DNA of 64,000 nt, taken from positions 1,105,870 to 1,169,869 of the forward strand of contig NC_020055.1 in NCBI RefSeq assembly GCF_000331025.1, in the 5' to 3' direction. Of this stretch, positions 2,307-64,000 are shown piece by piece. The position numbers were made by a program, and so were the translations under genes. The notes beneath the pieces were generated by a model. It saw nothing but the letters and a program-made list of their open reading frames with translations. It was not told the DNA's origin and ran no database searches. Origin of the DNA: Maridesulfovibrio hydrothermalis AM13 = DSM 14728 (GTDB lineage: Bacteria > Desulfobacterota > Desulfovibrionia > Desulfovibrionales > Desulfovibrionaceae). The stretch's first letter is position 1. Every line of letters starts with the position of its first letter.

Positions 2307-3974
2307 CTATTTTTTATAAACAGCACCGGTAGATGCTGAAGTAACATTCTGGCTGTATCTTTTAAGGAATGCTGTGGGCATTTCTTTTTCTACAGGTTTG
2401 AATGCCGCTTTGCGGCTTGCGATTTCGTCAGCATCAAGGAGTACGTTGATAGAGCGTCCGGGGATATCAATTTCAATCTTATCTCCGGTCTGGACTATGC
2501 CTATGGTTCCGCCGGATGCAGCTTCAGGTGAAATGTGTCCTATTGCAGCTCCGCGTGTTCCGCCGCTGAATCGTCCGTCAGTGACGAGTGCAACGTCAGC
2601 TCCGAGTCCCATGCCTGCGATGGCCGATGTGGGGGTGAGCATTTCGCGCATACCGGGGCCGCCTTTTGGTCCTTCATAGAGGATAACAACCGCATCGCCT
2701 TTTACAATTTCGTTTCCAAGGATCGCTTCGACTGCCTCCTCTTCAGAATTGTATACTTTGGCGGTGGATGTACGTTTCATCATTTCCGGTGCAACTGCGG
2801 ACTGTTTAACTACACATCCGTCTTCAGCAATATTACCGAAAAGAACTGCAATACCGCCTTCCCTGCTGTAGGGATCGGATACCGGACGTACTATTTCGTG
2901 ATCTTTTACTGAAGCATTAAGTGCTTTAATATTTTCACCGACAGTTTTTCCGGTAACGGTAAGTGCATCCAATTCAATGCGGTCTTCTTTGGAGAGTTCA
3001 GCCATGACCGCCTGAATTCCGCCTGCATCATGCAGATCCTGAATATGATGCGGACCGGCCGGTGAGAGTTTGCACAGGTTAGGGGTGCTGCGGCTGATTT
3101 TATCAAAAATTGTGAGATCTAGTTTAAGCTCTGCTTCATTGAAAATAGCGGGCAGATGCAGCACGGTGTTAGTGGAGCATCCCAAAGCCATATCCATCGT
3201 TACTGCATTTTTAAGGCTTTTTTCGGTAACGATATCGCGTGGTCGGATATCTTTTTCAAGCAGGGTCATGATCTGAGTTCCCGCACTTTTTGCAAGGCGG
3301 ATACGGTCAGCCATGACAGCGGGGATGGTTCCGTTGCCGGGCAGAGCAAGCCCTATAGTTTCGGACAGACAGTTCATGGAGTTTGCTGTGAACATACCGG
3401 AACAGGAGCCGCAGGTGGGGCATGCGCTCTGTTCAAGTTCGGAAAGTTCATCTTCGTTCATATTGCCTGCTTTAACTTGACCTACTCCTTCGAAAACGGT
3501 GATCAGGTCGACCTTTTTGCCGTCTTTCTTTCCAGCCAGCATCGGACCGCCACTGATAACTATTGTGGGAATATTCAGGCGAAGTGCCGCCATGAGCATG
3601 CCGGGCACAATTTTATCACAGTTGGGGATCAGCACCAGTGCATCAAATGGATGAGCTGTAGCCATTATTTCAATGGAATCAGCAATTATTTCACGGCTGG
3701 GCAGAGAGTAGCGCATACCCGCATGGTTCATGGCCAGTCCGTCACAGACACCGATAGCTGGAAATTCCATAGGCACACCGCCGGCAAGACGCACTCCGTC
3801 TTTTACTGCGCGGGTGATAGTGTGCAGGTGCACGTGACCGGGAATGATTTCATTAGCTGAGTTACAGATACCGATAAGCGGCCTGCTTACTTCGTCAGGA
3901 GAAAGGCCCAGTGCGTAGAGTAAAGAGCGGTGTGGTGCTTTTTCCAGCCCGCTTGTCATTTTTTTACTTCTCAT
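2307..3974 (-). CDS. ilvD: Dihydroxy-acid dehydratase
   Basis: IlvD dehydrates 2,3-dihydroxy-isovalerate and 2,3-dihydroxy-3-methylvalerate to 2-oxo acids in valine, isoleucine and pantothenate synthesis. It is an Fe-S enzyme. The cluster-binding signatures NCDKIVPGM and [19 protein letters not shown] are present, as is the family C-terminal region with [20 protein letters not shown]. The frame is open 43 codons further upstream, but the ATG at 3974 has a GAGGA ribosome site 7 nt away and gives 555 aa, the usual family length. The upstream extension shows no homology-like sequence. The gene stands alone; its 3' flank holds a 16-bp inverted repeat. Confidence 0.97.
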
Positions 3975-4165
3975 TAGTAAGTCCTCATAATTTGGGATGG
4001 GTCCGCATGGGATAGCTGGATATGGCTTTTCGGCTGCGCTATCCTTTAAAGAGTTGCGGAATACGGAAAACCGCCTGTTCAGGGGATAATGCAAGAATCC
4101 CAAAATCTTTTAGTTAGGGTTATTGAACTGAGCCTTACAGGGCTGCCGGAGATAGGAATATAATA

Positions 4166-5047
4166 TTAATTCTTAACAGCTACAAAACTGCTTAGCATTC
4201 CGATTATGGTGACTGTTCCGACCAGAGCAGCACACTGTTCAACGGGCAGGAAATTCAGCTTCATAAACAGCGGCGGAAAATTCAAAATGTCAGAAAAGAA
4301 TTGCTGCGCAGCGTAGAGTGAACCAAGTGCGATTGAGCTTCCTGAGAAGCCAAGCAGTGCTCCTCCGGTCAAGAGCGGAAGTCTGATGAACCAGCGTTTT
4401 GCGCCAACCAGATATAATATTTCTATTTCATCATGACGGGTCATTAATGACAGACGCATGGTGTTGCCGACTACCAGCGCAACGACCAGTCCCAGAAATC
4501 CGATTATGGGCCAGACAATTGATTGAGTCAGGTTAATCCAGCCCCTTGCCAGATCAATCTGTAAAGGATTGTAATGAACCTTGTCCACAAAGGGAAGTCC
4601 CTTTAACTCGCGCAGAAGTTCAGTTGCCCATCTTTCATTTTTTACTCCGGGTTCAACGGAGAATGAGAGTAGAGCTGTCGGGGGTAATGGATTGCGGTTT
4701 TTGCCCAGCCATGAAAAATCATCCGAATCACTAAGTGCTTCAGAAAGTTGCTTGAGAGCCTCTTCGGGGGTGAAGGTGCGAATATCTTTCAGTCCTTCAA
4801 TATTTTTTAGGTCAGCCCATTGTTTTTCAACGTCAGTCAGCGGGGTTTCAGTTTTCCAGAATATCTGGATTTCCACCTGTCCACGGCTTTTGAGGAGTTC
4901 CTGATTGACGTTGTGTAAAGTTATCATAAAAAGACCGGCCATAAGCGAAACCATAGTCACAGCAATGAGCGTGAAAAGGTTAGCCCAAGGGTGCAAACCC
5001 AAATCGCGGATACCTCGCCCTGTAAGTCTGAAAAATAATGAAATCAT
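4166..5047 (-). CDS. ftsX: Cell-division permease-like protein FtsX
   Basis: FtsX is the membrane half of the FtsEX complex, which at the septum transmits ATP hydrolysis to periplasmic peptidoglycan hydrolases. The 293-aa protein shows the expected plan: a short cytoplasmic N terminus, TM1 near residues 20-44, an extracytoplasmic loop of about 130 residues, then three TM helices (near 175-195, 222-245 and 265-290). The motif TRHDEIEILYLVGA between TM2 and TM3 is typical. Its ATG overlaps the ftsE stop (ATGA), so the two are translationally coupled. Overall length and topology match the family. Confidence 0.93.
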   Translation of the reverse strand: MISLFFRLTGRGIRDLGLHPWANLFTLIAVTMVSLMAGLFMITLHNVNQELLKSRGQVEIQIFWKTETPLTDVEKQWADLKNIEGLKDIRTFTPEEALKQLSEALSDSDDFSWLGKNRNPLPPTALLSFSVEPGVKNERWATELLRELKGLPFVDKVHYNPLQIDLARGWINLTQSIVWPIIGFLGLVVALVVGNTMRLSLMTRHDEIEILYLVGAKRWFIRLPLLTGGALLGFSGSSIALGSLYAAQQFFSDILNFPPLFMKLNFLPVEQCAALVGTVTIIGMLSSFVAVKN

Positions 5048-5730
5048 GGGCGCAGCTCCGAAAGGATATGAGCAGGCGGCTCACAAAGTTTTCCATCTTC
5101 AAGGTGGATAATTTTTGCCTCCGGCACGCAGCGCAGAATTTCCCGGCTGTGGGTTGCCATTACCACCGTTGTGCCGTGAGTATTGAACTGTTTAAAAACA
5201 TCCATGAGATGCATGGATAGTTCAAAATCCAGATTGCCGGTAGGTTCATCGGCGAGAATCAGTTTAGGGTTGACCACCATTGCTCTTGCAATGGCTACCC
5301 TTTGCTGTTCACCACCGGAAAGTCTTTGGCATTTGGTGTAGCTTTTATTTTCAAGACCTAGTGCGCGGATGATTGCCCGTACTCTTTTATCAATAGTTGA
5401 TTTAGGCATGCTTCTGACCGTCAGGGCCAGAGATACATTTTCATACACAGACCGGTTGGGCAGAATTTTAAAATCCTGAAAAACAACTCCCAGATCGCGG
5501 CGCAGCATGGGAATATGCTTACGTTTGATGTTGTGAAGTTTATATCCGGCGACCGTAGCCTGTCCCCGGGAAACCGGTAGTGCGCCGTATAACAGACGCA
5601 TGAGAGTTGTCTTGCCTGCGCCGGAATGTCCGGTCAGGAAAACAAAATCTCCTTTCTCAATATGCAGGGAGATATCTTTCAATGCCCAGTTGGAGCCGAA
5701 ATTGTATGATAGGCGACTTAGCCGGATCAT
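5044..5730 (-). CDS. ftsE: Cell-division ATP-binding protein FtsE
   Basis: FtsE is the cytoplasmic ABC ATPase partner of FtsX. The 228-aa sequence has Walker [10 protein letters not shown] near residue 34, the Q-loop [16 protein letters not shown] (FtsE-specific spacing), the signature [14 protein letters not shown], Walker [12 protein letters not shown] and the H-loop Thr-His near residue 193. An AGGT ribosome site precedes the ATG at 5730. It is the second gene of a small operon: lipoprotein (20 nt upstream), ftsE, ftsX. Confidence 0.95.
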
Positions 5731-9085: not shown

Positions 9086-9124
9086 AATCGGTCATCTAAT
9101 ATTTAGATGGCCGATTTGCTTTTG
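9086..9124 (+). terminator. Terminator of pgi
   Basis: AATCGGTCATCTA (9086-9098) pairs with TAGATGGCCGATT (9104-9116) with one G-T wobble and a 5-nt loop, followed by the T-rich TGCTTTT. Confidence 0.65.
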
Positions 9125-9410
9125 TGAGAGAAGGCTTATAAGTTATGATGCCTCCGTCGGTCGAAGGGGAAACGCTTTAGCCCGGGGGATTAAGTTGAGT
9201 TGCAATCGGATTGCATTTTTTCACAAGAGATTAATCAGATCCATTTATAAATTTTGAGGGAATATTTAATTTTTTAATTATATATGGACGGTATCGGCTG
9301 CTGGTTTGTAATAAAAGTTCGCCGTAATATTTTTTTTGGCATACTCACTCAAAAAAAGGTTCCCCTCTCCGGTTTCTGAAAGGCAGCCGGAGGACAGCCG
9401 GAGGCATCAT
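9125..9410 (+). other. Gene-free region before the sensor kinase
   Basis: No ORF is supported in this AT-rich stretch. The only visible structure is a direct repeat of AGCCGGAGG (9385-9393 and 9396-9404); the second copy is the ribosome site of the kinase gene. No sigma54 -24/-12 pair was found, although the partner regulator is a sigma54 activator. Confidence 0.35.
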
Positions 9411-10844
9411 TTGGATCAAAATAATCAAGACGCACAAATAAAATCTTTTCAGCTTGTGAAGCTTCTTTCGTGGACTCTTTTGGTGGTTATTATTGCCAGC
9501 AGTCTGGGGCTTTCTGTCTTTCTGGCAAAGCATGCTGATGAGACGCTTCTGGAAAAGCAGAAAGAATTTGCCTTGTTACAGGCTGAAAACCTTAACCATC
9601 AGATTTACAGACGTTTTATTCTGCCTACTATTATTGGATATGGGAGTATTGGGCTTAAGAATAAAGAACAGATGGATCGTCTGGATCAGGTTGTACGTTC
9701 GACTGTGCATAGCTTTAAGGTCAATGAAGTCAGAATATATGACCCGAGTCTGATTATTTCGTATTCAACTGACGCAGAAATGATCGGCAGAGACAATCTT
9801 GGCGGCGAATTTATCAAGAAGGTTCTTGATAGTGGCGAACCTAAATATGAATTTATAAGTAAGAAATCCACGTTGGGGATGATTTTTGATTTCAATATGC
9901 GGCCGGGAACAATGCAGCTCAAGATTGTTTACCCGTTGCGTTCAGAAAAAAGTTTGAAAATTGAAGAAAATGTAATCATGGGCGTAATGGTACTTACTCA
10001 GGATATTACTGAGGATTACCAGTCAGTTATCAACTTTGAACGGCTTATTCTGTTTACTTCAAGTTTTGCTGCTTTGATTCTTTTTGCCACTATCATGGCG
10101 ATTATCAGACGCGCTGATATTATCAATGCTCAACGCATGAAGGAGCGGCAGGCTTTTGAGCGCGAGCTTAACCAGAGTGAAAAGCTGGCCAGTATAGGGC
10201 GTATGGTTTCAGGAGTTGCCCATGAAATCCGTAATCCTCTGGGTATTATCCAGTCAAGTTCGGAGCTGTTGCTTAAGCGCATGAATGATAATGATCCGGT
10301 AAATACAAAAATACTTGGAGCTATTTATGAGGAGTGCAAACGGCTGAGCCGTACGGTGAGTGATTTTCTTGATTACGCAAGACCTCGTAAAATATCCCTT
10401 GTTGCGATTGATCCAGCTGACCTTCTGGATAAAATTTATATGTTTCTGGAATCAAGCTGCAAGGGAGATAATATTGAACTGGTCCGCAATTATACCCGTG
10501 GACATAAGGTCTGCGGTGATGAGGATCTGCTTTATCGGGCATTTTACAATCTGATCGGTAATGCCATGCAGGCGGTGAAGAGTGAGGGAAAAATTTTTAT
10601 TTCTCTGGATGCAGTTGAAAATGGACTTAATGTGATTATCTCCGACACCGGAAAAGGTTTTTCCCCTGAAATTATTGATAAGGTCAAAGATCCTTTCTTT
10701 ACTACGAAAGATAGCGGAACCGGTCTGGGGCTTGCCATTGTGAGCAATATTGTGGAAAGCCATAACGGAAAGTTCACCATCGGCAATAATCCCGAAGGCG
10801 GGGCGCGTATAACAATTTTTTTACCTGAAAAGAAAGACTGCTAA
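9411..10844 (+). CDS. Membrane sensor histidine kinase (NtrB/ZraS type)
   Basis: The 477-aa kinase is predicted to sense a signal outside the membrane and phosphorylate the adjacent regulator. TM1 is near residues 18-39 and TM2 near 212-232, enclosing an extracytoplasmic sensor of about 170 residues. The H-box is VSGVAHEIRNPLG (His near 271), then the N-box LIGNAMQAV, G1 SDTGKGF, F-box PFFTT and G2 GTGLGLAI. The frame is open to a TTG at 9336, but the TTG at 9411 has a GGAGG site exactly 6 nt upstream and is preferred. The response-regulator gene starts 16 nt after the stop. The stimulus is unknown. Confidence 0.9.
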   Translation: MDQNNQDAQIKSFQLVKLLSWTLLVVIIASSLGLSVFLAKHADETLLEKQKEFALLQAENLNHQIYRRFILPTIIGYGSIGLKNKEQMDRLDQVVRSTVHSFKVNEVRIYDPSLIISYSTDAEMIGRDNLGGEFIKKVLDSGEPKYEFISKKSTLGMIFDFNMRPGTMQLKIVYPLRSEKSLKIEENVIMGVMVLTQDITEDYQSVINFERLILFTSSFAALILFATIMAIIRRADIINAQRMKERQAFERELNQSEKLASIGRMVSGVAHEIRNPLGIIQSSSELLLKRMNDNDPVNTKILGAIYEECKRLSRTVSDFLDYARPRKISLVAIDPADLLDKIYMFLESSCKGDNIELVRNYTRGHKVCGDEDLLYRAFYNLIGNAMQAVKSEGKIFISLDAVENGLNVIISDTGKGFSPEIIDKVKDPFFTTKDSGTGLGLAIVSNIVESHNGKFTIGNNPEGGARITIFLPEKKDC

Positions 10845-10860
10845 TTATCGGATATAAATT

Positions 10861-12234
10861 ATGGCTACAAATATTCTCATACTGGATGACGAACAGAACT
10901 ACCTGTTGATTCTGGAGGCTTTGCTTTCAGATGAGGGGTATACCATTACAGCTCTTTCCGACCCTGAAACCGGACTGGCATATCTTGATGAATCGGAAGT
11001 GGACCTTGTCATCACCGACATGAAGATGCCAAAGCTGACAGGGCAGGATGTGCTGGAACATGTGAAAAAGAATTTTTCGCATATTCCGGTCATCATTATG
11101 ACAGCTTTCGGATCTATTGAATCAGCCGTTGAGGCTATGAAAATAGGGGCTTTCGACTACATAACCAAACCTTTTGCCAATGAAGAGCTGCTCTTGTCTG
11201 TGACCAAAGCAGCCCAGTTTGCCAAGGCTCAGCAGGAAAACAGGCAGCTGCGCGAACAGATTAAGGATCGCTATTCTCCGAACAACATTATCGGCCGTTC
11301 AAAGCCTATGATGCAGGTTTTTGAGATGATTCATAAAGCTGCTCCGGGAAGTTCAACTGTGCTGGTCACTGGTGAATCCGGTACCGGCAAGGAGCTGGTT
11401 GCGCAGGCAATCCATCAGGCTTCACCGCGTTGTGACAAGCCTTTTGTTTCAGTTAACTGCATGGCGCTCAATCCCGGAGTTCTTGAAAGTGAACTTTTTG
11501 GGCATGAAAAAGGTTCGTTCACCGGAGCTGTGGCCCGCAGGCGCGGCCGTTTTGAAACTGCCGATGAGGGAACTTTATTTCTTGATGAGATAGGCGAACT
11601 CTCCAACGACATGCAGGTCAAACTTTTACGGGTATTGCAGGAAAAGACTATTGAACGGGTTGGCGGAGTTGATCCTGTTAAAGTTGATATCCGTATTGTT
11701 GCCGCTACCAATAAGAATTTGAAAAAAGCCGTAGAGGATGGCGAGTTTCGCGAGGATCTTTATTACCGGCTCAACGTGGTCAGCATTGAACTGCCGCCCC
11801 TTCGTGAGCGTCGTGAAGATATTCCTTTTCTCGTGGACCATTTTCTTGCCACTTATTCAGCAGACAATAATAAGGTTTTCGAGGGCTTTTCGCCCTCGGC
11901 GATGGATTATATGACCGCCTACGAGTGGCCCGGTAATGTACGTCAGCTTCAAAATGTAATTGAACGTTGCGTTGTTTTGACCTCTGCCAATGTTATTGCA
12001 ACCGAAGATCTGCCGGCAGAGATCAAGGACGAAGAGGCACAGTTTAAAAGTGCGGTTGACTTACTCCCTGCCAAACTGAATCTTGCTGATACACTGGATA
12101 AAATTGAAGCGACACTGGTTCGCCGTGCTTTGGTACACAGTAATTTTATCAAAGTTGATGCCGCTGATATGCTCGGTATTTCTAAAAGCCTGCTTCAGTA
12201 TAAGCTTAAGAAATATAAGATTACCGGTAAATAA
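10861..12234 (+). CDS. Sigma54-dependent response regulator (NtrC family)
   Basis: The 457-aa regulator has three domains. The receiver (1-120) carries phospho-acceptor Asp53 in ITDMKMP and Lys in YITKPF. The AAA+ domain has Walker A GESGTGKE near 172, the sigma54-contact loop GSFTGA (a common variant of GAFTGA) and Walker B GTLFLDEIGEL. The C-terminal Fis-type helix-turn-helix ends ADMLGISKSLLQYKLKKYKI. It is the cognate partner of the kinase just upstream. Target promoters cannot be named from the window. A strong bidirectional terminator follows. Confidence 0.95.
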   Translation: MATNILILDDEQNYLLILEALLSDEGYTITALSDPETGLAYLDESEVDLVITDMKMPKLTGQDVLEHVKKNFSHIPVIIMTAFGSIESAVEAMKIGAFDYITKPFANEELLLSVTKAAQFAKAQQENRQLREQIKDRYSPNNIIGRSKPMMQVFEMIHKAAPGSSTVLVTGESGTGKELVAQAIHQASPRCDKPFVSVNCMALNPGVLESELFGHEKGSFTGAVARRRGRFETADEGTLFLDEIGELSNDMQVKLLRVLQEKTIERVGGVDPVKVDIRIVAATNKNLKKAVEDGEFREDLYYRLNVVSIELPPLRERREDIPFLVDHFLATYSADNNKVFEGFSPSAMDYMTAYEWPGNVRQLQNVIERCVVLTSANVIATEDLPAEIKDEEAQFKSAVDLLPAKLNLADTLDKIEATLVRRALVHSNFIKVDAADMLGISKSLLQYKLKKYKITGK

Positions 12235-12317
12235 AAGTCGACCATGCCGTTCAGATTTAAATTATCAGGACGCTGAAAAAGTATTTTTGATTATGTGAAA
12301 TGAATTATTGGAAGCAC

Positions 12318-12361
12318 AAAAAAGGTGTTTTGACTGATGGTTAAGTCAAAACACCTTTTTT
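12318..12361. terminator. Bidirectional terminator
   Basis: A 12-bp stem, GGTGTTTTGACT (12324-12335) with AGTCAAAACACC (12344-12355), is flanked by six As and six Ts. It separates the regulator gene from the convergent small gene ending at 12432. Confidence 0.9.
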
Positions 12362-12431
12362 ATTACTATTAAAGAGGGCTTTTTCAGCGGGAAGTTTAAA
12401 GCTTTACCAGAGTATTTCAAGTCAGCTTTTT

Positions 12432-12701
12432 TTACGTATGGCAGGCACTGCTTCCAGTGCAGTATGCATCGATAAAGCCCATCAGCTGATTTCCGAAATG
12501 GACGCACCTTTCACCTTCGATACATTTTTTTGCATCATCTTTATCAATATGGGTGAACAGGGTTTCTCCGTCTTTTACCAATGTTACAACCCAGCTGTTT
12601 TTTTCCTCACTGAATTCAGTAACGATATCAAGATTATATTTTGTAATCTCGGGATAGAGATCAATAATCTTTCCTCTTATTTGTGAACTGCTGATACTCA
12701 T
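12432..12701 (-). CDS. Small conserved-looking protein of unknown function
   Basis: The function is not recognised. The 89-aa product looks like a small alpha/beta cytoplasmic domain, with a KKCIEGERC segment and a C-terminal tail CTGSSACHT that together give four Cys. The frame opens at an ATG at 12713, but its AGGA touches the start codon. The ATG at 12701 has GGAG 6 nt upstream and is preferred. A good sigma70-type promoter lies upstream (12781-12808), so it is expressed on its own. The clustered Cys could bind metal or form a disulfide, but nothing shows this. Confidence 0.7.
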   Translation of the reverse strand: MSISSSQIRGKIIDLYPEITKYNLDIVTEFSEEKNSWVVTLVKDGETLFTHIDKDDAKKCIEGERCVHFGNQLMGFIDAYCTGSSACHT

Positions 12702-50616: not shown

Positions 50617-51582
50617 TTATTCTTGCTGGGCTTCATTGATGAGTTTGAAAACTCTTTCTGCCAGCTGGTTGATTTCTGCTTTTGAAATCTGATCATCAGC
50701 ACCTACAGATTCACCTTTATGGAAGAGGGTATCAGTGATGATCGAGGAGCAGAGCAGAACCGGAAGGTGTCTAAGCTCCATATCATCTTTGATGCGTTTG
50801 GTCAGGTTATGACCATCCATGACAGGCATTTCAATATCGGTCACCACAATGTCCAGATAGTCGTCAATAGTTGTACCTTCAGCTTCCGCCTTGGCCCGCC
50901 ATTCTGTAATTTTATCCCATGCGGCTTTACCGTTGTGGGTTCTGGTTACCTTGAATCCGGCATCTTCGAGCATCTGCCCGATCATGCGGCGGATCATGGT
51001 GGAGTCATCGGCGATAAGAGCTTTGAGCTGTCTCTTTTCGATCTGATCAACCAGAGAAGCTTCAGGGGCTTCAGTCAGGTCCATTCCGGGGTTAAGGTCA
51101 GCTACGATCTTTTCAAGGTCGAGCAGGAAGACAATACGCCCTTCCAGTTTAACCACACCGGTGATGGAGTTTGCTGTAAGTGAAGAAACCTGCCTGCTGG
51201 GCGCTTCGACCTGTTCCCAGCTGATGCGGTGAATTCTTGTAACACCGGAAACAAGGAATGCGGTGGAAATTTTGTTGAACTGGGTGACGATTACTTTAGG
51301 GGCTTCGTCTTCAATTCTGTTTTTACCTACCCTGCGGCTAAGGTCGATCAGGGGAATAATTTCTGACCTGAGGTCAAATGCACCGAGGACGGCATCGTTA
51401 GCTGCATCAGGCATATCTGTAAGTTCAGGCAGCCTGATGATTTCAACTACTTTGGCTACGTTGATTCCGTAGTAGCTTCGTCTGGTAGCATCATCACGTA
51501 CATTGTCAATTTCGTCGATATAAAATTCAACTATTTCAAGCTCATTGGTGCCTGATTCAAGTAGAATATTCGTGTGGGACAT
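50617..51582 (-). CDS. cheV: Chemotaxis coupling protein CheV
   Basis: CheV couples chemoreceptors to CheA and tunes by phosphorylation. The 321-aa protein has a CheW-like domain (about residues 15-170, including YGINVAKVVEIIR) and a C-terminal receiver (about 185-318) with acidic DD pair (IADDST), phospho-acceptor Asp in VVTDIEMPVMDG and Lys in ISKAE. A GGGGGAGG site precedes the ATG. It is transcribed alone, next to sugar-transferase genes. It may serve the polar chemotaxis array of the cell rather than the cluster at 59-64 kb. Confidence 0.95.
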   Translation of the reverse strand: MSHTNILLESGTNELEIVEFYIDEIDNVRDDATRRSYYGINVAKVVEIIRLPELTDMPDAANDAVLGAFDLRSEIIPLIDLSRRVGKNRIEDEAPKVIVTQFNKISTAFLVSGVTRIHRISWEQVEAPSRQVSSLTANSITGVVKLEGRIVFLLDLEKIVADLNPGMDLTEAPEASLVDQIEKRQLKALIADDSTMIRRMIGQMLEDAGFKVTRTHNGKAAWDKITEWRAKAEAEGTTIDDYLDIVVTDIEMPVMDGHNLTKRIKDDMELRHLPVLLCSSIITDTLFHKGESVGADDQISKAEINQLAERVFKLINEAQQE

Positions 51583-54543: not shown

Positions 54544-54889
54544 ACATTATTACAAGGCACATTTGAGACTGTCTTGTCAAAGGATTTATTTTCCAAGTAA
54601 ATAGATGCGGCTGCCAATATTATGGCATTCTTTTCCGCATCTCTTTTTTATTTAATTGATGAATGCCCGGATTTTAATAGAATGTCATTATTTATGATAT
54701 TTTGCATCGTGAAGGAAATTCTTTTTGTAACGGTTTAAAATGATGAGTTTTTATTATTTACAGTGATTTGGAAAAGTAATATTTAGCACTTGACAAGGCT
54801 CTTTTGCGGTCAAGTGGTCTTCTTTTTGCATGGTTTTGTACAGAAAACTATTTCTGACAGCTAAATTATGGCAAAGAAGGAGACCTGAA
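54544..54889. other. Divergent gene-free region with an 8-bp inverted repeat
   Basis: No ORF is supported. CACTTGAC (54787-54794) and GTCAAGTG (54809-54816) are exact inverse copies 14 nt apart, about 75 bases before the GGDEF start, with a T-rich tract behind. It could be an operator overlapping TTGACA (54790-54795) or an attenuator hairpin. Confidence 0.4.
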
Positions 54890-56365
54890 ATGAAGAGAGG
54901 AAGCAGACCCGAACTGCTTTGGGGGTTCGGTCTTAATAGTAACGAAGCCGGCAAGATTGAGGATTCTCTCGGTCCCGGGTTCTTTTTGAGAAATTTCTCA
55001 GAAAGATCACTTCCCGGTGAGGATGAACTGGAAAGTCAGGAAAAGCCTGCCGCTACGTGGATTCCGCAACGGGTATGGAAGGAGCTTCCTGAAGCGCGCC
55101 GTACAGCATACCGTAATCTGGAATCAACCCAGCGTATACTTATTCAAGATGAGACTCAGAAAAATGTTGATCTGGAAAGCGTTCTTGAGGACGGGTTTCT
55201 TGCAGTGGTAAGCGCACCGCTGACCAGCAGCAAGGTGCAGGACGCCCTGTTCAGAGCCAAGGAAATATCCGGCCTTTACGGTGATTTGTACCGTATGACT
55301 GAAGAGATCATTATGGAGCGTGAACTGCTCAGCCGCAAGACCGAGCAGCTGATGTTTCTTAATACAGTGCTTTCAAATGCAACTGAACGTCTTGAGGTGG
55401 CTGATATCCTTGGACAGGCCGTTGAAGATCTCAAGATGCTGCTTCCGGTGTATTCTGTACAGGGGGCATTCTGGGATGTTCTTGCGACCGGAAAGCATAT
55501 TGAAGCAGAAATTTTTCTAAACCCCGGCATGATGCCGGAAGTGCAGACCGAATGGACTGAGTTTATGATCGAAAACGTTGTCGCCCTCAGCGGCATGGAT
55601 GTTTCCGGTTATAAGGTTGCTGAAACCGTGAATGCGTCTGAAAGCCGGATGGTTTACGGTCCTGCAGCAGGTAAAGTGCTGGCTCTCCCTCTTATTTCAC
55701 GCGGAGATAAGTTCGGTTGTCTGGTAATGCTTTGCGAAAAGAACATCAGGCTGGCCAAAGATCAGGTTTCCACTCTCAATGCAGCGGTGAACCATCTTTC
55801 CCTCGCACTGAGCAATGCTCTCATGTTTAATAAGATCAGAACCCGCGCCGACCGTGACGGACTGACCAGAGTTTTCAACCGCCGCAGTTTTGATGAAAGG
55901 CTTGTGGAAGAGTTTAAGCGTCATCAGCGTCTTAATACTGATTTGTCACTGCTTATGGTTGATCTGGATCACTTCAAGCTTATCAATGATACCTACGGTC
56001 ATATGGCTGGAGATATGGTCCTTGAAAAGGTGGCCAGACTTTTTGAATCAACTTTTCGCTCGACAGATTTTATCGCCCGTTACGGAGGCGAAGAGTTTGT
56101 TATTCTGCTGCCTCATACCAATGAAAGGCATGCTCATATGCTGGCGAAAAGAGTTATAAAGAAGATCGCGGCAACGACAATGTCTTATCAGGACAAGAGT
56201 TTCAGCGTAACTGCGAGTATCGGCGTTTCGTCCGCGCGGCCCGGAAGTTTTGAAAAGAATAATGAAATTATCCGCAAGGCTGATGAAGCTCTCTACGAAG
56301 CAAAGGCGCAAGGCCGTAACAGAGTAGTCGTTTCGTCTGCGCGGCCTAAGCTTAGAATAATGTAA
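54890..56365 (+). CDS. Diguanylate cyclase (GGDEF) with GAF-like sensory region
   Basis: The 491-aa protein makes cyclic-di-GMP. A C-terminal GGDEF domain (about residues 320-485) has ARYGGEEFVILLP, with a GGEEF active site and an inhibitory I-site RSTD five residues before it. The middle (about 150-315) is GAF-like. The N-terminal 120 residues are not recognised. An AAGGAG site lies 7 nt before the ATG at 54890; an earlier ATG (54830) has no such site. It is soluble and probably feedback-inhibited. It is divergent from the glycosyltransferases and may tie cyclic-di-GMP to surface polysaccharide, by inference. Confidence 0.93.
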   Translation: MKRGSRPELLWGFGLNSNEAGKIEDSLGPGFFLRNFSERSLPGEDELESQEKPAATWIPQRVWKELPEARRTAYRNLESTQRILIQDETQKNVDLESVLEDGFLAVVSAPLTSSKVQDALFRAKEISGLYGDLYRMTEEIIMERELLSRKTEQLMFLNTVLSNATERLEVADILGQAVEDLKMLLPVYSVQGAFWDVLATGKHIEAEIFLNPGMMPEVQTEWTEFMIENVVALSGMDVSGYKVAETVNASESRMVYGPAAGKVLALPLISRGDKFGCLVMLCEKNIRLAKDQVSTLNAAVNHLSLALSNALMFNKIRTRADRDGLTRVFNRRSFDERLVEEFKRHQRLNTDLSLLMVDLDHFKLINDTYGHMAGDMVLEKVARLFESTFRSTDFIARYGGEEFVILLPHTNERHAHMLAKRVIKKIAATTMSYQDKSFSVTASIGVSSARPGSFEKNNEIIRKADEALYEAKAQGRNRVVVSSARPKLRIM

Positions 56366-58673: not shown

Positions 58674-59363
58674 TTAAATATGTTTGAAGCGATAACCAAC
58701 GCCGCGCACTGTTTCGATATAGTCAGCGTAAGGGCCGAGTTTCTGGCGCAGCCTGCGGATGTGAGTGTCGACAGTGCGGGAATATCCTTCAAAGTGGGTA
58801 TCCCAGACCGTATCCAGCAGATGGTCACGGGTGCGTACTTTTCCTTCGTGCTGTAAAAGTTCTGAGAAAAGCTTGAATTCTGTGGCAGTCAAGGCCACAA
58901 GTTCGCCATCGCATTCAACTGTGTGGGCCTCAAAGTCTACGGTCAGACCTTCACGGTTCCATTTGCCGGGACGTTTTGGTTCCGGTTCATGGCTGCGGCG
59001 CAAAACAGCTTTTATTCTCAGCACCAGTTCGCGCGGGCTGAACGGTTTGACAATGTAATCATCAACTCCCAGTTCAAGCCCCACAACCCGGTCAACCTCC
59101 TCACCTTTGGCAGTGAGCATGATGACCGGAATATGCTGAATTCCCACTTCCTGTTTAAGTCTGCGGCATACCTCAAGCCCGTCAATGCCCGGAAGCATAA
59201 GATCCAGCAGGATGAGGTCAGGGTTTTCATTTCTGGCCTGCTCCAGAGCTTTATGGCCGTCCATTGCTGTTACAACATCATATCCAGAAGAGATGAGGTT
59301 GTACTTCAACAGTTCAATAGTATCGTGATGGTCTTCAACGACCAGTATTTTATCAGCTGACAA
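58674..59363 (-). CDS. phoB: Response regulator, PhoB type
   Basis: The 229-aa OmpR/PhoB-type regulator has a receiver with DD (VVEDHHDT), phospho-acceptor Asp in LLLDLMLPG near residue 52 and Lys in YIVKPFSP. A C-terminal winged helix ends RTVDTHIRRLRQKLG and VRGVGYRF. The frame opens at a TTG at 59399, but the TTG at 59363 has AAGGAG 6 nt upstream and starts LSADKILVVEDHH, so it is chosen. It starts 70 nt after the haem chemoreceptor gene, and may be read from the chemosensory transcript as well as its own promoter. Confidence 0.9.
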   Translation of the reverse strand: MSADKILVVEDHHDTIELLKYNLISSGYDVVTAMDGHKALEQARNENPDLILLDLMLPGIDGLEVCRRLKQEVGIQHIPVIMLTAKGEEVDRVVGLELGVDDYIVKPFSPRELVLRIKAVLRRSHEPEPKRPGKWNREGLTVDFEAHTVECDGELVALTATEFKLFSELLQHEGKVRTRDHLLDTVWDTHFEGYSRTVDTHIRRLRQKLGPYADYIETVRGVGYRFKHI

Positions 59364-59390
59364 AGCGTTCTCCTTTTGGGCGGACCTTAC

Positions 59391-59426
59391 CTGTAACAAT
59401 GCTACAAATTAAGACGAACCTGTTAC
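59391..59426 (-). promoter_or_regulatory. Candidate Pho-box-like repeats upstream of phoB
   Basis: On the minus strand TTGTAACAGG and TTGTTACAGG recur 29 nt apart in the 70-nt gap between the chemoreceptor and phoB. A similar TGTTAC/GTAACA repeat precedes the glycerophosphodiesterase gene (20712). Auto-regulation by PhoB is possible. Confidence 0.35.
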
Positions 59427-59433
59427 AACTTGG

Positions 59434-61287
59434 TTAATTGTCGGAGTTTGTCATCTCTGCTTCCTGTCCGTCATCAGTGCTATCGGCACGGGATGCTTTC
59501 TCCGTGACATAGAGTTCACTTACTTTCGCCGTTCTGAACCCGTCAACTGCTCCGGTTAAACTCTGTACTGTGTAGTTCAGGCTGGCCACGGTCTGTTTGA
59601 ACTCTTCGATGGAGCTTGTGGTTCCGGCAGCGGCGTCACTTAAGTCGGACATGGCTTCGCTGATCTGCCCCGCGCTGTCAGCCTGATCGCCCATAGAGAG
59701 GGATACTTCGGCAAAGCGGGGTTTCAAAACTCTGACCTGATCAATAATCTGTCCTAGATCGGAACTCATTTTTTCAACTTCATCCACGCTGGAGCGCACT
59801 TCATGGTTGAATTTTTCCATTTCGATGACTCCGGAGCTTACAGCGGACTGCATGTCTCTGACCATAAGTTCAATGTCTTCGGCAGCAATGACGGTCTGGT
59901 CGGCAAGCCTGCGTATCTCGCGGGCGACAACTGAGAATCCCTGTCCGAACTGGCCTGCTTTTTCAGCTTCAATGGCAGCGTTCAGTGAAAGCAGATTGGT
60001 CTGATCCGCAATACGTGCAATGGTGGTGACAATGTTATTGATCTTGGTGGCCTTTTCATTAATGGCCCCGAGCCGTGTGGACACATGGTCTGTTGAATCC
60101 ACAAGTTTTATCAGCGATTGTTCCCGCAGCGCAATGTTGGTTTGAAGTGCTTCTGCCATCTGTGCTGATTCATTGGCACTTTCAGAAACATCTTCCATGA
60201 CCTGTACAAGATCTTTGGACGTTTTGCTGATCAGCATGCTGGTGGCGGTCACCTCATTTGTAGAAGCGGCCTGCCGGTTGACAGCAGATTCAATCTGTAT
60301 TGCTGTTGCCCTGATTTTGCCTCCGGCAACAGAAACATTATCTCCGGAATCCCGCACCTCTCCGACCAGTTCTGAAAGGCCGGAGATCATTGTTTCAAAA
60401 GAAGAAACAAGATTTCCGATTTCATTGCCGGGTTTTAAGAACGTGCGGGCATAAAAATTATCCTCAGCAATATTTTTCATTTTACGCAGAGCAATATGAG
60501 CACTTTGCAGATCACCTTCTGCAATGAATTTGGCGATATCGGTGATTTTTGAAACAGGTTTAAAAATAAGGTTCAGGCCGAAAATAAGAAAGAACAGAGT
60601 CACAGCAATCAAAATGCAGCCAATGAAAACCACTGATCCCAGAGTTTGATTGGCAGCAGCATTCATGGACGCCAGCGGAATGGCAGCAATCTGAGCGCAC
60701 TCAATGCGACCCGGCTTGCGGAAGTAACCGGTATCTTTATCCACTGGATATGTATTTTTCATGGATTGGGGAGCATTTTTAGGATCACCGTGACAGGTCA
60801 TGCAGGACGGCTTATTCACTTCACCCTCAGCTGCGACAAAATAGTCTACCCCGTTGATTTTACGGATTTCTCCGATAAAAGGTCTTTGGCCTGCCGCGGC
60901 CATGCGGTCCAGCTCTTCTATGATGAGTGCTTCATCTCCTGTAGCCATATTTTTCGGGTTGCGAGGTTTGGTGGAGGCTGTTTTATAGCTCAGTTCATGC
61001 TTGTACTGGTCGGGAATGCGGCTGAACACGCCATTGGCAGTAAAGGATGTAGACTGGAGTTCAGCCACGAATTTATTTTTAGGCAAAAGCTCTGTTGCCT
61101 TGGGCCTTATAACTGCGCTGGTGTGTTTGCGCACTGCCTTCATGGTGTGGAGCATTATTTCAGCCTTGCCGCGATACTCGTTCATGAGAGTTTCGCGGGT
61201 ATAGTTTGAAATAAGCCACATAATTGACACGGTAAGGGCGATGCAAAAAATAACACACCCGATGATGAACTGCTTGCGGATACTCAT
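59434..61287 (-). CDS. Chemoreceptor with periplasmic c-type haem motif
   Basis: The 617-aa methyl-accepting protein has TM1 (about residues 8-26), a periplasmic DUF3365/Tll0287-like sensor (about 30-213) containing the haem-c motif CMTCH (C162, C165, H166), TM2 (about 216-240), HAMP (about 241-295) and a signalling domain with [20 protein letters not shown] at the hairpin tip. GAGG precedes the ATG. It is the last gene of the chemosensory cluster and starts 43 nt after the PP2C gene. A haem-c sensor suggests detection of redox potential or a gas. The haem is inferred from CxxCH and must be attached by Ccm proteins. Confidence 0.92.
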
Positions 61288-61330
61288 TGTTTATCCTCTT
61301 TACTCCCGAAAAATTGCAGGCTTGCTGCTT

Positions 61331-62524
61331 TTATTCAAAAACAAATTCCACCATAGAAAAATCATCTTCATACATCTCCTCACCCTGCAAGGCTCTGGTA
61401 TGCTTTATGAGCTGGTCAATGGGGGTTCCGAGCGGTCCGTCTGTTCCGGCCATAAATCTGGTATATTCATCAAATTCCCACATTTTTCCATCTGAAACTT
61501 TTTGCAGTTCATAAACACCGTCACTGTAGAGAAAGAATCGTGCTCCGGGGGCAATCGTAACAGAGTCGCTGGTGTAGGTCATGTCGGGCATGCCGCCCAC
61601 AATCATACCCGGTGTGCGCAGCTGGTGTGTTTCACTTCCGTTGAAGAGCAAAGCCGGAGGATGCCCGCCGCTGGAATAGGTCAGGGTGCGCTCAGATTTA
61701 CAGTACACTCCGTACCACATGGTAAAGTACAGGTTATTCTGCTGGTCCATCTGGAATGAATTGTTCAGAGACACCAGCACATTGTCCGGTTTAAGGAAAT
61801 CAGTATCCGGCAGTGTCTGAGAGCGGAGCACATTCATGGCGGAGACAGAAAGCAAAGCCGAACCTACCCCGTGATCACAGACATCAAGCAGATACATGGC
61901 AAAATGATCATCATCGAGCCAGTGGTAACCGAAAGAGTCTCCGCCGAGTGAGGCGGAAGGGATGAAACGCCAGTCGGCCTTGATTTCTCCTTCAAACATG
62001 GGATCAGGCAGCAGGGAGGTAACATAGTCAGCAGCTACAGCCAGCTCTTTGCGCATTTCATCTCTGCTTTCCAGAAGCTGTTTATATGCTTCGTTTCTTT
62101 GCAGTAGGTTGATGTAACCCTTTGAGTGATATCTGATGCGGGCCAGCAGTTCAATGCGGTCCGGCAGTTTGACCAGATAGTCATTGGCACCGAGGGCAAA
62201 CGCTTCAGCTTTGGTAGTTGCCTCTTCTTTGGTGGAAAGCACGATAAGCGGGATGTCTTTAAGCTTTGAATTGACCCTCATGAATTTCACCATAGTCATA
62301 CCGTCAATTTCAGGCATGACAAGATCCTGCAAAATGACTGTGGGCTGTAGACTTTCCGCAGTGGGAATAGCCTGAGTAGGGTCGCTTACAAAATGGAAAT
62401 CTATATCTTCCTCTCCCTCCAGCATTCTGCGCACCGCTTCGCCGACCATAGGCTGATCATCGATCAGTAAAACACTTATCTTGTGCTCGGTAAGGAGTTG
62501 TTCGTTAATCGCCGCATAGGTCAT
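61331..62524 (-). CDS. Receiver-PP2C phosphatase (RsbU/HsbR-like response regulator)
   Basis: The 397-aa protein joins an N-terminal receiver (about residues 15-135; phospho-acceptor Asp in LQDLVMPEIDG, Ser in VLSTKEE, Lys in YLVKLPD) to a coiled linker and a PP2C-like phosphatase (about 185-395) with SLGGDSFGYHWL, LLDVCDHGVGSALLSV and SDGVYELQ metal-binding aspartates. Such phosphatases act on anti-sigma antagonists in partner switching. It overlaps cheB by 4 nt (ATGA) and has AGGAG 8 nt upstream. The receiver is the likely output target of the CheA-type kinase. No antagonist or anti-sigma gene lies in the window. Confidence 0.92.
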   Translation of the reverse strand: MTYAAINEQLLTEHKISVLLIDDQPMVGEAVRRMLEGEEDIDFHFVSDPTQAIPTAESLQPTVILQDLVMPEIDGMTMVKFMRVNSKLKDIPLIVLSTKEEATTKAEAFALGANDYLVKLPDRIELLARIRYHSKGYINLLQRNEAYKQLLESRDEMRKELAVAADYVTSLLPDPMFEGEIKADWRFIPSASLGGDSFGYHWLDDDHFAMYLLDVCDHGVGSALLSVSAMNVLRSQTLPDTDFLKPDNVLVSLNNSFQMDQQNNLYFTMWYGVYCKSERTLTYSSGGHPPALLFNGSETHQLRTPGMIVGGMPDMTYTSDSVTIAPGARFFLYSDGVYELQKVSDGKMWEFDEYTRFMAGTDGPLGTPIDQLIKHTRALQGEEMYEDDFSMVEFVFE

Positions 62525-63549
62525 GTTACTTTCTCCTGAAATCTTTTATTAAAATGTCTGGTCAGGATTCTGGCCATATCATTAATAGAACATATTTCGC
62601 GAGCCGCATTAAGTTTGACCGCTGCTCCGGGCATGCCCCAGACAACACTGGATTTTTCATCCTGAGCAATGGTCAGCCAGCCTGAATTTTTAAGTTCAAG
62701 CAGTCCTTTTGCGCCGTCTGCTCCCATTCCGGTTAACAGCACAGCGGCTGAGTTGGCTGGAAATCCGGCGCAACACAGGCTGTCATAAAATAAATCCACG
62801 GAAGGAACATATAAATTACCGTCGGAATTGGGAGTGATCTGCACTGTTCCGCCCGGTCTCATCAACATATTGGTATCACCGGGGGCAATTACAGCCTGCC
62901 CCGCCTGTAACATCTCGCCGTTGCGGGCAAGAGACACTTTTATCTCAGTCTGGCTGTCCAGCCATTGGGCCAGATTTTCAGAAAACTGTCCGTCCACGTG
63001 CTGCACAATGGCAATTGCAGCCGGAAAATCCTCGGGCAGATCCCCGAGCAGTGTGGCAAGAGCCGATGGTCCTCCCGTGGAGCTGCCTATAGCCAGAAGC
63101 GGCGGCCTTGCTCTGGACCGTAAACGGGGTTTAGGATCTATGTGAGAGTGTTTGCCGTTGTTCTGTAATTTGCTGAGCACTGAAATTTTTGAAATTAAAT
63201 TGGAGTCTCCTTTTAAAGCTCCGTCAGTTCCAAGTTCCGGAGTGGCTACCACGTCCAGTGCTCCGGCCCCCATTGCTTCAAAAACTTTGGAAGCATTATT
63301 TTCTATGCTTGCGGTAACTACAAGTATGGAGCAGGGGCATTTTTTCATAATCCGGCGGGTGGCCTCGGCCCCGTCCATGACCGGCATGTTCAGGTCCATG
63401 AGCACAATGTCCGGCACATCAGCACAGCATTTTTCAATAGCGCGTTCGCCGTTACGGGCAATCCATGCTATTTCATATCCCGCAGAAGTGATGACCTTTT
63501 TGAGTACTTCCACGGCTATGCCCATATCATTGACAATTGCTATTCTCAC
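62521..63549 (-). CDS. cheB: Chemoreceptor methylesterase CheB
   Basis: CheB demethylates chemoreceptors for adaptation. The 342-aa protein has a receiver (about 1-120, phospho-acceptor Asp in LMDLNMPVMDG) and a C-terminal esterase (about 150-340) with the catalytic Ser in IGSSTGGPSAL, His in IVQHVDGQFS and Asp in LTGMGADGAKG. It starts at a GTG overlapping the CheA-type stop (GTGA) and overlaps the PP2C gene by 4 nt, so the three are tightly coupled. A CheR partner is not in the window. Confidence 0.95.
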   Translation of the reverse strand: MRIAIVNDMGIAVEVLKKVITSAGYEIAWIARNGERAIEKCCADVPDIVLMDLNMPVMDGAEATRRIMKKCPCSILVVTASIENNASKVFEAMGAGALDVVATPELGTDGALKGDSNLISKISVLSKLQNNGKHSHIDPKPRLRSRARPPLLAIGSSTGGPSALATLLGDLPEDFPAAIAIVQHVDGQFSENLAQWLDSQTEIKVSLARNGEMLQAGQAVIAPGDTNMLMRPGGTVQITPNSDGNLYVPSVDLFYDSLCCAGFPANSAAVLLTGMGADGAKGLLELKNSGWLTIAQDEKSSVVWGMPGAAVKLNAAREICSINDMARILTRHFNKRFQEKVT

Positions 63550-64000
63550 TTTGTAACCCCGCCGATAAGATCTTCAACTGCCGATAGCAGGGTTTCATCA
63601 TGAAAACTGCTTTTGGTAAGATAATAATCCGCTCCGGCCTCAAGGCCCCGCAGTTTATCTTCTTTACGGTCTTTGTAGGATACCATCATCACCGGTATAG
63701 ATTTCATATCGGGATCAGCTTTGATTCTGCGGGTCAGCTCCAGTCCGTTCATCCTTGGCATATCTACATCTGTGATCACCAGATCATAATCACCGGCAAG
63801 GACTGCGTTGAAACCATCCTGCCCGTCAACGGCTGTGTCTACGTCATAGCCGTAGTTGGCCAGCAGTTTACGTTCCACTTCTCTGACGGTAAGGGAATCA
63901 TCAACTACAAGAATCTTCTGGGCCTGAGCGGCCTCAGTTGCATCAACTCCCACTTTGTTCAACCTGCCTCCGGAAAGGAGGTTGTCGATGGAGCGCACAA
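63546..64000 (-). CDS. CheA-type hybrid kinase with C-terminal receiver (3' end only)
   Basis: The gene is cut by the right edge. The visible 150 residues begin inside a CheW-like regulatory domain (VRSIDNLLSGGRL, the usual C-terminal end of CheA). They continue through a short linker into a receiver (about 30-145) with DD in VVDDSL, phospho-acceptor Asp in VITDVDMPRMNG and Lys in YLTKSSF. The GTG at 63998 is an internal Val, not a start. The CheA-receiver-CheB order resembles Wsp-type alternative pathways. The kinase core and any CheW or CheR genes lie outside the window. Confidence 0.85.
   Translation of the reverse strand, partial: VRSIDNLLSGGRLNKVGVDATEAAQAQKILVVDDSLTVREVERKLLANYGYDVDTAVDGQDGFNAVLAGDYDLVITDVDMPRMNGLELTRRIKADPDMKSIPVMMVSYKDRKEDKLRGLEAGADYYLTKSSFHDETLLSAVEDLIGGVTK

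Follow-up and report, generated by a model that had tools for sequence, protein, structure and literature searches.

The 64,000-nucleotide stretch of the Maridesulfovibrio hydrothermalis AM13 genome analyzed here, referred to in the following as the window (G000:C2:1105870–1169869, in a genome of 3.7 Mb on two contigs), ends within a chemosensory operon on the minus strand, the predicted output of which is a response regulator made of a receiver domain and a PP2C-type phosphatase domain, referred to as REC-PP2C. The next 14 kb to the right of the window edge (locus L002) were included to complete the operon (Table 1). A sequence-only reading of the window had listed four minus-strand genes, encoding the receiver of a CheA kinase, CheB, a receiver–PP2C protein and a haem-c chemoreceptor (methyl-accepting chemotaxis protein, MCP), and all four were confirmed by open reading frames and Pfam. 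The genes from the Cache-domain MCP through the haem receptor are all on the minus strand, with intergenic gaps of −4 to 43 bases. The overlaps noted by that reading are real, GTGA joining CheA to CheB and ATGA joining CheB to PP2C, while the gap between PP2C and the haem-c MCP is 43 bases. The search beyond the window edge that it had suggested yielded the kinase core, two CheW proteins and CheR-TPR, whereas genes for STAS or anti-sigma proteins were not found. That part of the operon showed only CheA, CheW, CheR-TPR, CheW and an MCP, and thus neither a CheY nor a GGDEF gene, the presence of which just outside the window would by that reading have spoken against its proposal.

Table 1. Genes of the operon and its PhoB-type neighbor, in window numbering.
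Gene product	Position	Strand	Evidence or remark
MCP with Cache_3-Cache_2 domain	68854–71076	−	Beyond window edge
CheW	68372–68851	−	Beyond window edge
CheR-TPR	67124–68368	−	Beyond window edge
CheW-like	66455–67111	−	Beyond window edge
Hybrid CheA (WspE-type), 956 aa	63546–66416 (window holds 63546–64000)	−	Pfam receiver 3.6e-27
CheB methylesterase with receiver (WspF-type)	62521–63549	−	Pfam CheB 1.1e-54, receiver 4.2e-18
REC-PP2C response regulator, 397 aa	61331–62524	−	Pfam SpoIIE 3.2e-37, receiver 3e-20
Haem-c chemoreceptor (MCP)	59434–61287	−	Pfam MCPsignal 2.3e-32, Tll0287-like 1.4e-26
PhoB-type response regulator	58674–59399	−	Pfam; 34 bases past chemoreceptor

Judged by its genes and their order, the operon is of the Wsp type with another output, because it combines the WspA-B-C-D-E-F layout and a WspR-type receiver with a SpoIIE-type PP2C domain, which takes the place of GGDEF at the WspR position. 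Wsp systems ordinarily convert surface or chemical cues into a second messenger, whereas phosphatases of the kind found here free gene regulators. On a strict definition of Wsp, which asks for GGDEF on WspR, the operon falls outside, as SpoIIE PP2C is found instead. It shares with the Pseudomonas Wsp locus (L045) an MCP, CheW, CheR-TPR, a second CheW, CheA-REC, CheB and a regulator with a WspR-type receiver, and differs from it in having PP2C rather than GGDEF as the output, an extra haem-c receptor and a second Hpt in CheA. The whole CheA protein, encoded at 5416–8286 of L002, comprises Hpt (two stretches), HATPase_c, CheW and receiver domains. CheB is 45% identical to its counterpart in L045, with no variation at S156, H184 and D278 across five aligned rows, and the receiver of REC-PP2C is 61% identical to that of the Pseudomonas protein over the whole stretch and 63% locally. 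The sequence-only reading had set the cluster apart from Wsp by its lack of a GGDEF output; this was right for the output, but the contrast itself fell, since the operon is Wsp-type. The GGDEF gene at 54830–56365 (PF00990, 1.1e-49) is on the opposite strand, past a PhoB/PhoR-type pair. No second WspR-type receiver was found in the genome at 1e-25 among the best 11 of 61 first-look candidates.

Two further observations concern the chemosensory proteins. The first Hpt of CheA has Asn at the position expected for the phospho-accepting His; in L042 and G256 the residue found there is Gln, Thr or Gly, and there are one to three Hpt-like motifs per CheA. Elsewhere in the window, a CheW domain (51097–51477, minus strand) lies within a 321-aa frame that is probably CheV.

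When a family profile of REC-PP2C was compared with the PDB, WspR came first over the receiver (3bre, 4e-68; 3i5a, 2e-67), followed by P. aeruginosa RssB (3eq2, 3.8e-41). The predicted model (predicted local distance difference test 89.8, predicted template modeling score 0.69) consists of the receiver, a helix at residues 123–171 and the PP2C domain. Its closest full-length fold by Foldseek was P. aeruginosa RssB (3f7a/3eq2, 5.9e-29), then E. coli RssB; WspR, SiaA (6k4e), RsbX, the RsbU–RsbW protein Rv1364c and SpoIIE were also matched. Pfam gave no third domain, such as the kinase of CrsR or HsbR, in the 397-aa protein. In a 14-row alignment, D22, D23, D67 and K119 of the receiver were unvarying, as were D196, D214, D335 and D388 of PP2C, which we take to be the metal-site residues. 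Of 45 proteins, 41 passed a motif test, and the remaining four proved to keep the residues on reading. Since its active-site residues are conserved in this way, the PP2C enzyme is probably active.

The two RssB folds would also fit a protein that serves as an RssB-like adaptor, handing a client to a protease instead of, or besides, acting as a phosphatase. We regard this as highly improbable, given that the four acidic PP2C residues are kept throughout, that relatives fuse the PP2C domain to an RsbW-like kinase (see below), and that E. coli RssB is a truncated protein without activity (PMC12143880; here and below, statements on articles cited by accession refer to the accessible parts of those articles). 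The junction between the domains is regular: from the last conserved motif of the receiver to the start of PP2C there are 32 residues in 32 distinct sequences and 25 residues in seven, a difference of exactly one heptad. In GGDEF forms, the same junction measures 36 residues in five; six more sequences fitted no pattern. This spacing is what a coiled-coil linker of fixed register would be expected to show, and it agrees with the way in which the linkers of RsbU and RssB have been proposed to work (PMC12143880).

The Wsp-PP2C operon recurs in Desulfovibrionaceae-like genera, in other families of the phylum and in a second phylum. In the searches of the order and of both phyla the best candidates per genome (11 or 4) were scored, so that weaker copies may be missed, and counts of STAS, kinase, Che and haem-receptor genes come from six-frame searches. 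The nearest named records to REC-PP2C were Desulfovibrio metagenome-assembled genomes (MAGs), at 87% identity, and a search of named genomes with REC-PP2C gave only four loci. Within the order, 50 of 348 genomes had a WspR-type receiver at 1e-25. The best 30 of these all carry PP2C and all belong to the same family as the window, 17 of them to the same genus. Another family accounts for 17 of the 50, with short WspR-type receiver frames of 149–214 aa; the short receiver gene adjoins a hybrid kinase gene in five of the six loci fetched (L087–L090, L094), with no Wsp genes seen, and in the sixth no such neighbor was visible in the gene list. Three matches were weak, and both of those fetched were generic REC-PP2C proteins with a STAS gene nearby.

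Across the phylum, the full REC-PP2C profile matched 34 of 395 genomes, and Wsp-PP2C operons were present in families f36, f54 and f59; the contig of G527 (f80) ends before the operon, and in G623 (f59) CheB alone is visible. REC-PP2C comes after CheB in 27 loci, with a receiver–cyclase gene between them in f54, where all three loci fetched (L132, L133, L134) have a receiver–class III cyclase (PF00211) and then REC-PP2C. In seven loci of the phylum (L140, L141, L143, L189–L192), it is REC-GGDEF that comes after CheB; the contig of L140 ends after CheB. The Lentisphaerae locus L044 has a Wsp gene order ending in REC-PP2C, and in the phylum of this Lentisphaerae MAG 34 of 387 genomes matched, those in G971 and G773 being left out of the loci examined. 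This second phylum has 22 full-length WspR-type REC-PP2C proteins (E ≤ 1.2e-165), and 15 of them follow CheB (14 fetched loci, including L261 with CheB alone, plus L044), while one (L271) has neither che genes nor an adjacent HATPase_c_2. Two further Wsp operons of the second phylum (L280, L292) end in a WspR-type receiver–histidine kinase with one or more further receivers. The gene order that the sequence-only reading had expected to be conserved is thus borne out in relatives. As a separate observation, CheB of the Wsp-PP2C operon in genus g23 seems to be without a receiver, the L085 protein being a methylesterase domain alone (197 aa); CheB matches in L084, L086 and L095, of the same genus, are similarly short.

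The PhoB-type regulator gene that follows the operon is possibly cotranscribed with it and recurs in the own-genus loci L076–L078 and in L079, but is not needed for the system described here. A PhoB/PhoR-type pair in this position suggests another kinase, such as the PhoR-type neighbor, as the driver of REC-PP2C, whose gene would then be a mere neighbor of the array genes; in support, WspR-type receivers exist without Wsp genes, beside hybrid kinases or HATPase_c_2 alone. The ATGA overlap with cheB, the receiver type held in common with WspR and the recurrent position after cheB in both phyla nevertheless make this very unlikely, and argue for CheA.

The sequence-only reading had further proposed that the phosphatase acts on a partner switch. 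Relatives support this idea for the PP2C subfamily. In G236 (L174), STAS (2035–2379) and HATPase_c_2 (2454–2897) genes lie directly upstream of the MCP gene (3036–5387) of a Wsp-PP2C operon, on the same strand. In G890 (L268), HATPase_c_2 (11499–11978, minus strand) and STAS (12022–12438, plus strand) are found about 1 kb past the PP2C frame (9110–10534). Six of the 22 WspR-type REC-PP2C proteins of the second phylum are encoded next to a HATPase_c_2 gene, with che genes lacking from the stretch fetched (L266, L277–L279, L281, L282); the genes of L266 are convergent, with an overlapping STAS frame. Similar PP2C domains occur in STAS–HATPase–PP2C operons (L137, L138), where a GAF-PAS-PP2C protein is 52–55% identical to the window's PP2C domain and where the STAS protein and the kinase of L137 share 44% and 39% identity, respectively, with those of the G236 pair, and in PP2C–HATPase_c_2 fusions (L286 and L288, with PP2C domains 49% and 41% identical to the window's). 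STAS and HATPase genes lie no more than about 3.5 kb from the generic REC-PP2C genes of the phylum (L193–L200) in eight of eight cases, at 27–34% identity where the window's PP2C was among the matches.

The genome of the window contains both kinds of partner: 7 SpoIIE, 14 STAS and 5 HATPase_c_2 matches were over the cut-off. A kinase–STAS pair (HATP1/STAS1) at G000:C2:132.7–133.5 kb, beside which no sigma factor was noticed, is the best candidate partner in trans. A profile of the RsbW-like kinase family (A6), four of whose six rows come from genomes of the window's own family, matched all 17 genomes with WspR-type REC-PP2C (15 with CheA and CheB seen, G623 with CheB, and G527 at a contig end) and none of seven with Wsp-GGDEF, which are mostly smaller. 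Over the phylum it matched 121 of 395 genomes, a draw taken to be the same as that of the REC-PP2C survey; the comparison of 16/16 with 105/379 other genomes gave a Fisher p of 2.9e-9, not corrected for kinship. The association is weakened because kinship explains part of it, and, as it is confounded by relatedness, the pair is a candidate only. Among 80 chosen genomes of the window's family, the kinase was matched in 57 and is thus not specific. A STAS gene adjoins the best kinase match in 14 of 14 genomes (13 with WspR-type REC-PP2C, plus G718), and a second kinase place in G726 has no adjacent STAS.

Several results weigh against a partner switch as the output of this operon. No STAS or RsbW-like kinase gene was found in cis in L002. 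The pair is in cis in one of 27 Wsp-PP2C loci of the first set (G236) and adjacent in one of 14 of the second (L268), with that of L273 about 8.6 kb off, where the flanks scanned vary in length and some stop at contig ends. No STAS or kinase gene was seen in the stretch examined around the non-Wsp PP2C genes L135, L136, L139 and L187, and three of the nine non-Wsp PP2C loci fetched from the second phylum lack an adjacent pair, namely L289, L291 and L284, the last of which has one about 8 kb away. The kinase family occurs without WspR-type REC-PP2C in families f59 (G495, G519, G642, G676) and f54 (G448, G526, G666), as well as in the 105 of 379 other genomes; HATP1 and STAS1 show no more than distant similarity (28% and 29% identity) to the pair that lies in cis in G236; and the target is not fixed, because the genome has 14 STAS matches and six further SpoIIE matches.

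That the pair forms part of every Wsp-PP2C operon was considered and rejected, as nearly all lack it in cis. Three other loci were recorded in passing. L097 (C2:676931–677637) has HATPase_c_2 and STAS before DUF342-like and motA/motB-like genes, named by eye, and may be a partner switch linked to the flagellar motor. At L100 (C2:1032998–1033902), a PP2C gene is followed by a STAS gene and then by an ABC transporter set that looks by eye like Mla. In L285, genes for REC-PP2C and a STAS-TCAD9 protein come after a set of chemosensory genes that is not of the Wsp type and comprises CheR, CheB and three weak matches to MCP.

The substrate of the phosphatase might instead be a STAS-like regulator of a diguanylate cyclase, as in SiaABCD, with cyclic di-GMP (c-di-GMP) as the end point. 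This possibility overlaps with a PP2C partner switch as understood here and differs in the client. It gains from the presence of the SiaA PP2C among the fold matches, from the pathway described in P. aeruginosa (PMC7647112, PMC9239204), from the fact that Wsp normally ends in c-di-GMP and from a GGDEF gene near the generic REC-PP2C/STAS/HATPase locus L193. Nevertheless, a comparison with one GGDEF reference revealed no cyclase next to the STAS–kinase pairs that lie in cis in L174 and L268, and the genome had no match to SiaC (PF09345) in a search of unproven sensitivity that also gave none in 14 control genomes. We therefore consider a SiaABCD-like end point rather unlikely. SiaC itself was set aside as the target in this genome on the strength of that same search.

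The sensor domain of the haem-c chemoreceptor is Tll0287-like, with Tll0287 itself (5b82, 1.5e-5) as the best Foldseek match. This Tll0287/DUF3365 domain carries a CXXCH motif, CMTCH at residues 162–166, of which C162, C165 and H166 are unvarying in an eight-row alignment. Such a sensor was found in 9 of 50 loci having WspR-type REC-PP2C (G000, L042, L043, G261, G271, G256, G235, G236 and G075), whose number includes no locus of the second phylum; the remaining 41 gave no match. Two of the 50 loci are from one genome, and the lengths of the stretches differ. With nine loci in 50, the haem receptor is a lineage-specific addition rather than part of the conserved core. DUF3365/Tll0287 domains have been described as Cache domains with covalent haem c and properties of nitric oxide (NO) sensors (PMC12889525, a 2026 preprint), and by analogy the receptor is probably a sensor of NO or another gas, or of redox state. 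Geobacter GSU0582 and GSU0935 similarly have a periplasmic CXXCH domain in an MCP; here it is joined to a Wsp-PP2C operon.

The best explanation, and in our view a likely one, is that a Wsp-type array of the class "alternative cellular functions" (ACF), encoded by one operon, drives a PP2C partner switch. It builds on the gene content, its conservation, the domain identities, the conserved catalytic-site residues and the genomic linkage in relatives described above; the phosphotransfer, the direction of the switch, its substrate and the signal (NO, another gas or redox) would be as follows. The double-Cache MCP and the haem-c MCP would set the activity of the hybrid CheA through the two CheW proteins, while the methylation of the receptors would be governed by CheR-TPR and CheB. 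Phosphate would pass from CheA to the WspR-type receiver of REC-PP2C, and the phosphorylated receiver would turn PP2C on by way of the helical linker, as proposed for RsbU/RssB-type phosphatases. PP2C would then dephosphorylate a STAS anti-antagonist, which in this form would bind an RsbW-like kinase and free its target, a sigma factor or some other client. In this genome, the STAS and kinase partners would act in trans. If this is correct, a methylation-adapting array controls gene expression in sulfate reducers via dephosphorylation and partner switching, and NO, other gases or redox state could be sensed as inputs through the haem-c receptor.

In a tree of CheR, CheW, CheA and CheB (33 rows), there were two changes between PP2C and GGDEF, and in a tree of CheA and CheB that included the second phylum (44 rows, four near-copies dropped), three changes among PP2C, GGDEF and kinase; both trees are quick and unrooted, with one support measure. 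The small number of changes suggests that outputs are passed on stably and, in this sample, have seldom been exchanged. A midpoint root places the GGDEF and kinase forms together within the diversity of PP2C, but no direction of change can be read from unrooted trees that rest on PP2C-based sampling. We lean, with some reserve, towards a broader view in which the Wsp array serves generally as an input chassis, with a receptor–CheA–CheB core and one type of receiver, to which a diguanylate cyclase, a PP2C partner switch, a histidine kinase or a class III cyclase may be attached after the linker helix. The PP2C form would then be a widespread, uncharacterized class of array-controlled partner switch in at least two phyla, and GGDEF one branch. 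The occurrence in nature of exchanged outputs on a single receiver also means that the idea of domain exchange through coiled-coil linkers (PMC12143880) is testable with homologues of differing output.

Among known proteins, P. aeruginosa RssB, grouped here with RsbU-type PP2C, has the same arrangement of receiver, long helical linker and PP2C and is the best fold match, but the window's receiver is closer to WspR. P. aeruginosa RssB is not known to be encoded in a chemosensory operon. Linker-driven phosphatase dimers and the exchange of sensor and output domains have been proposed (PMC12143880), and in D. vulgaris there are three cheA loci, the roles of two of which were left open (PMC3944678). 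PP2C was listed among the receiver outputs of CheR-TPR/ACF clusters by Garcia-Fontana et al. in 2012 (PMC3447774), and the present lineage may already be in Table S2 of that article. Its clusters have the same class of output; the accessible parts of the article do not give the mechanism, the partner genes or the output swap. A link between chemosensory systems and partner switching was proposed for Che1 and CrsR/CrsA of Shewanella oneidensis (PMC9855816, PMC6482189), where chemosensory genes likewise lie beside a receiver–PP2C protein and a STAS anti-antagonist. That array was called F7, has CheY and CheD and has the antagonist gene in cis, and CrsR carries its own kinase/anti-sigma domain, unlike the window's REC-PP2C. 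Among the matches listed in the open-access literature (titles and the beginnings of abstracts), no experimental study of a Wsp-PP2C system was found. Because PP2C outputs had been catalogued (PMC3447774) and the Shewanella link proposed (PMC9855816), the sequence-only reading's "little-described" suits the system better than "new" would: its parts are known, and it is their combination that has been little studied.

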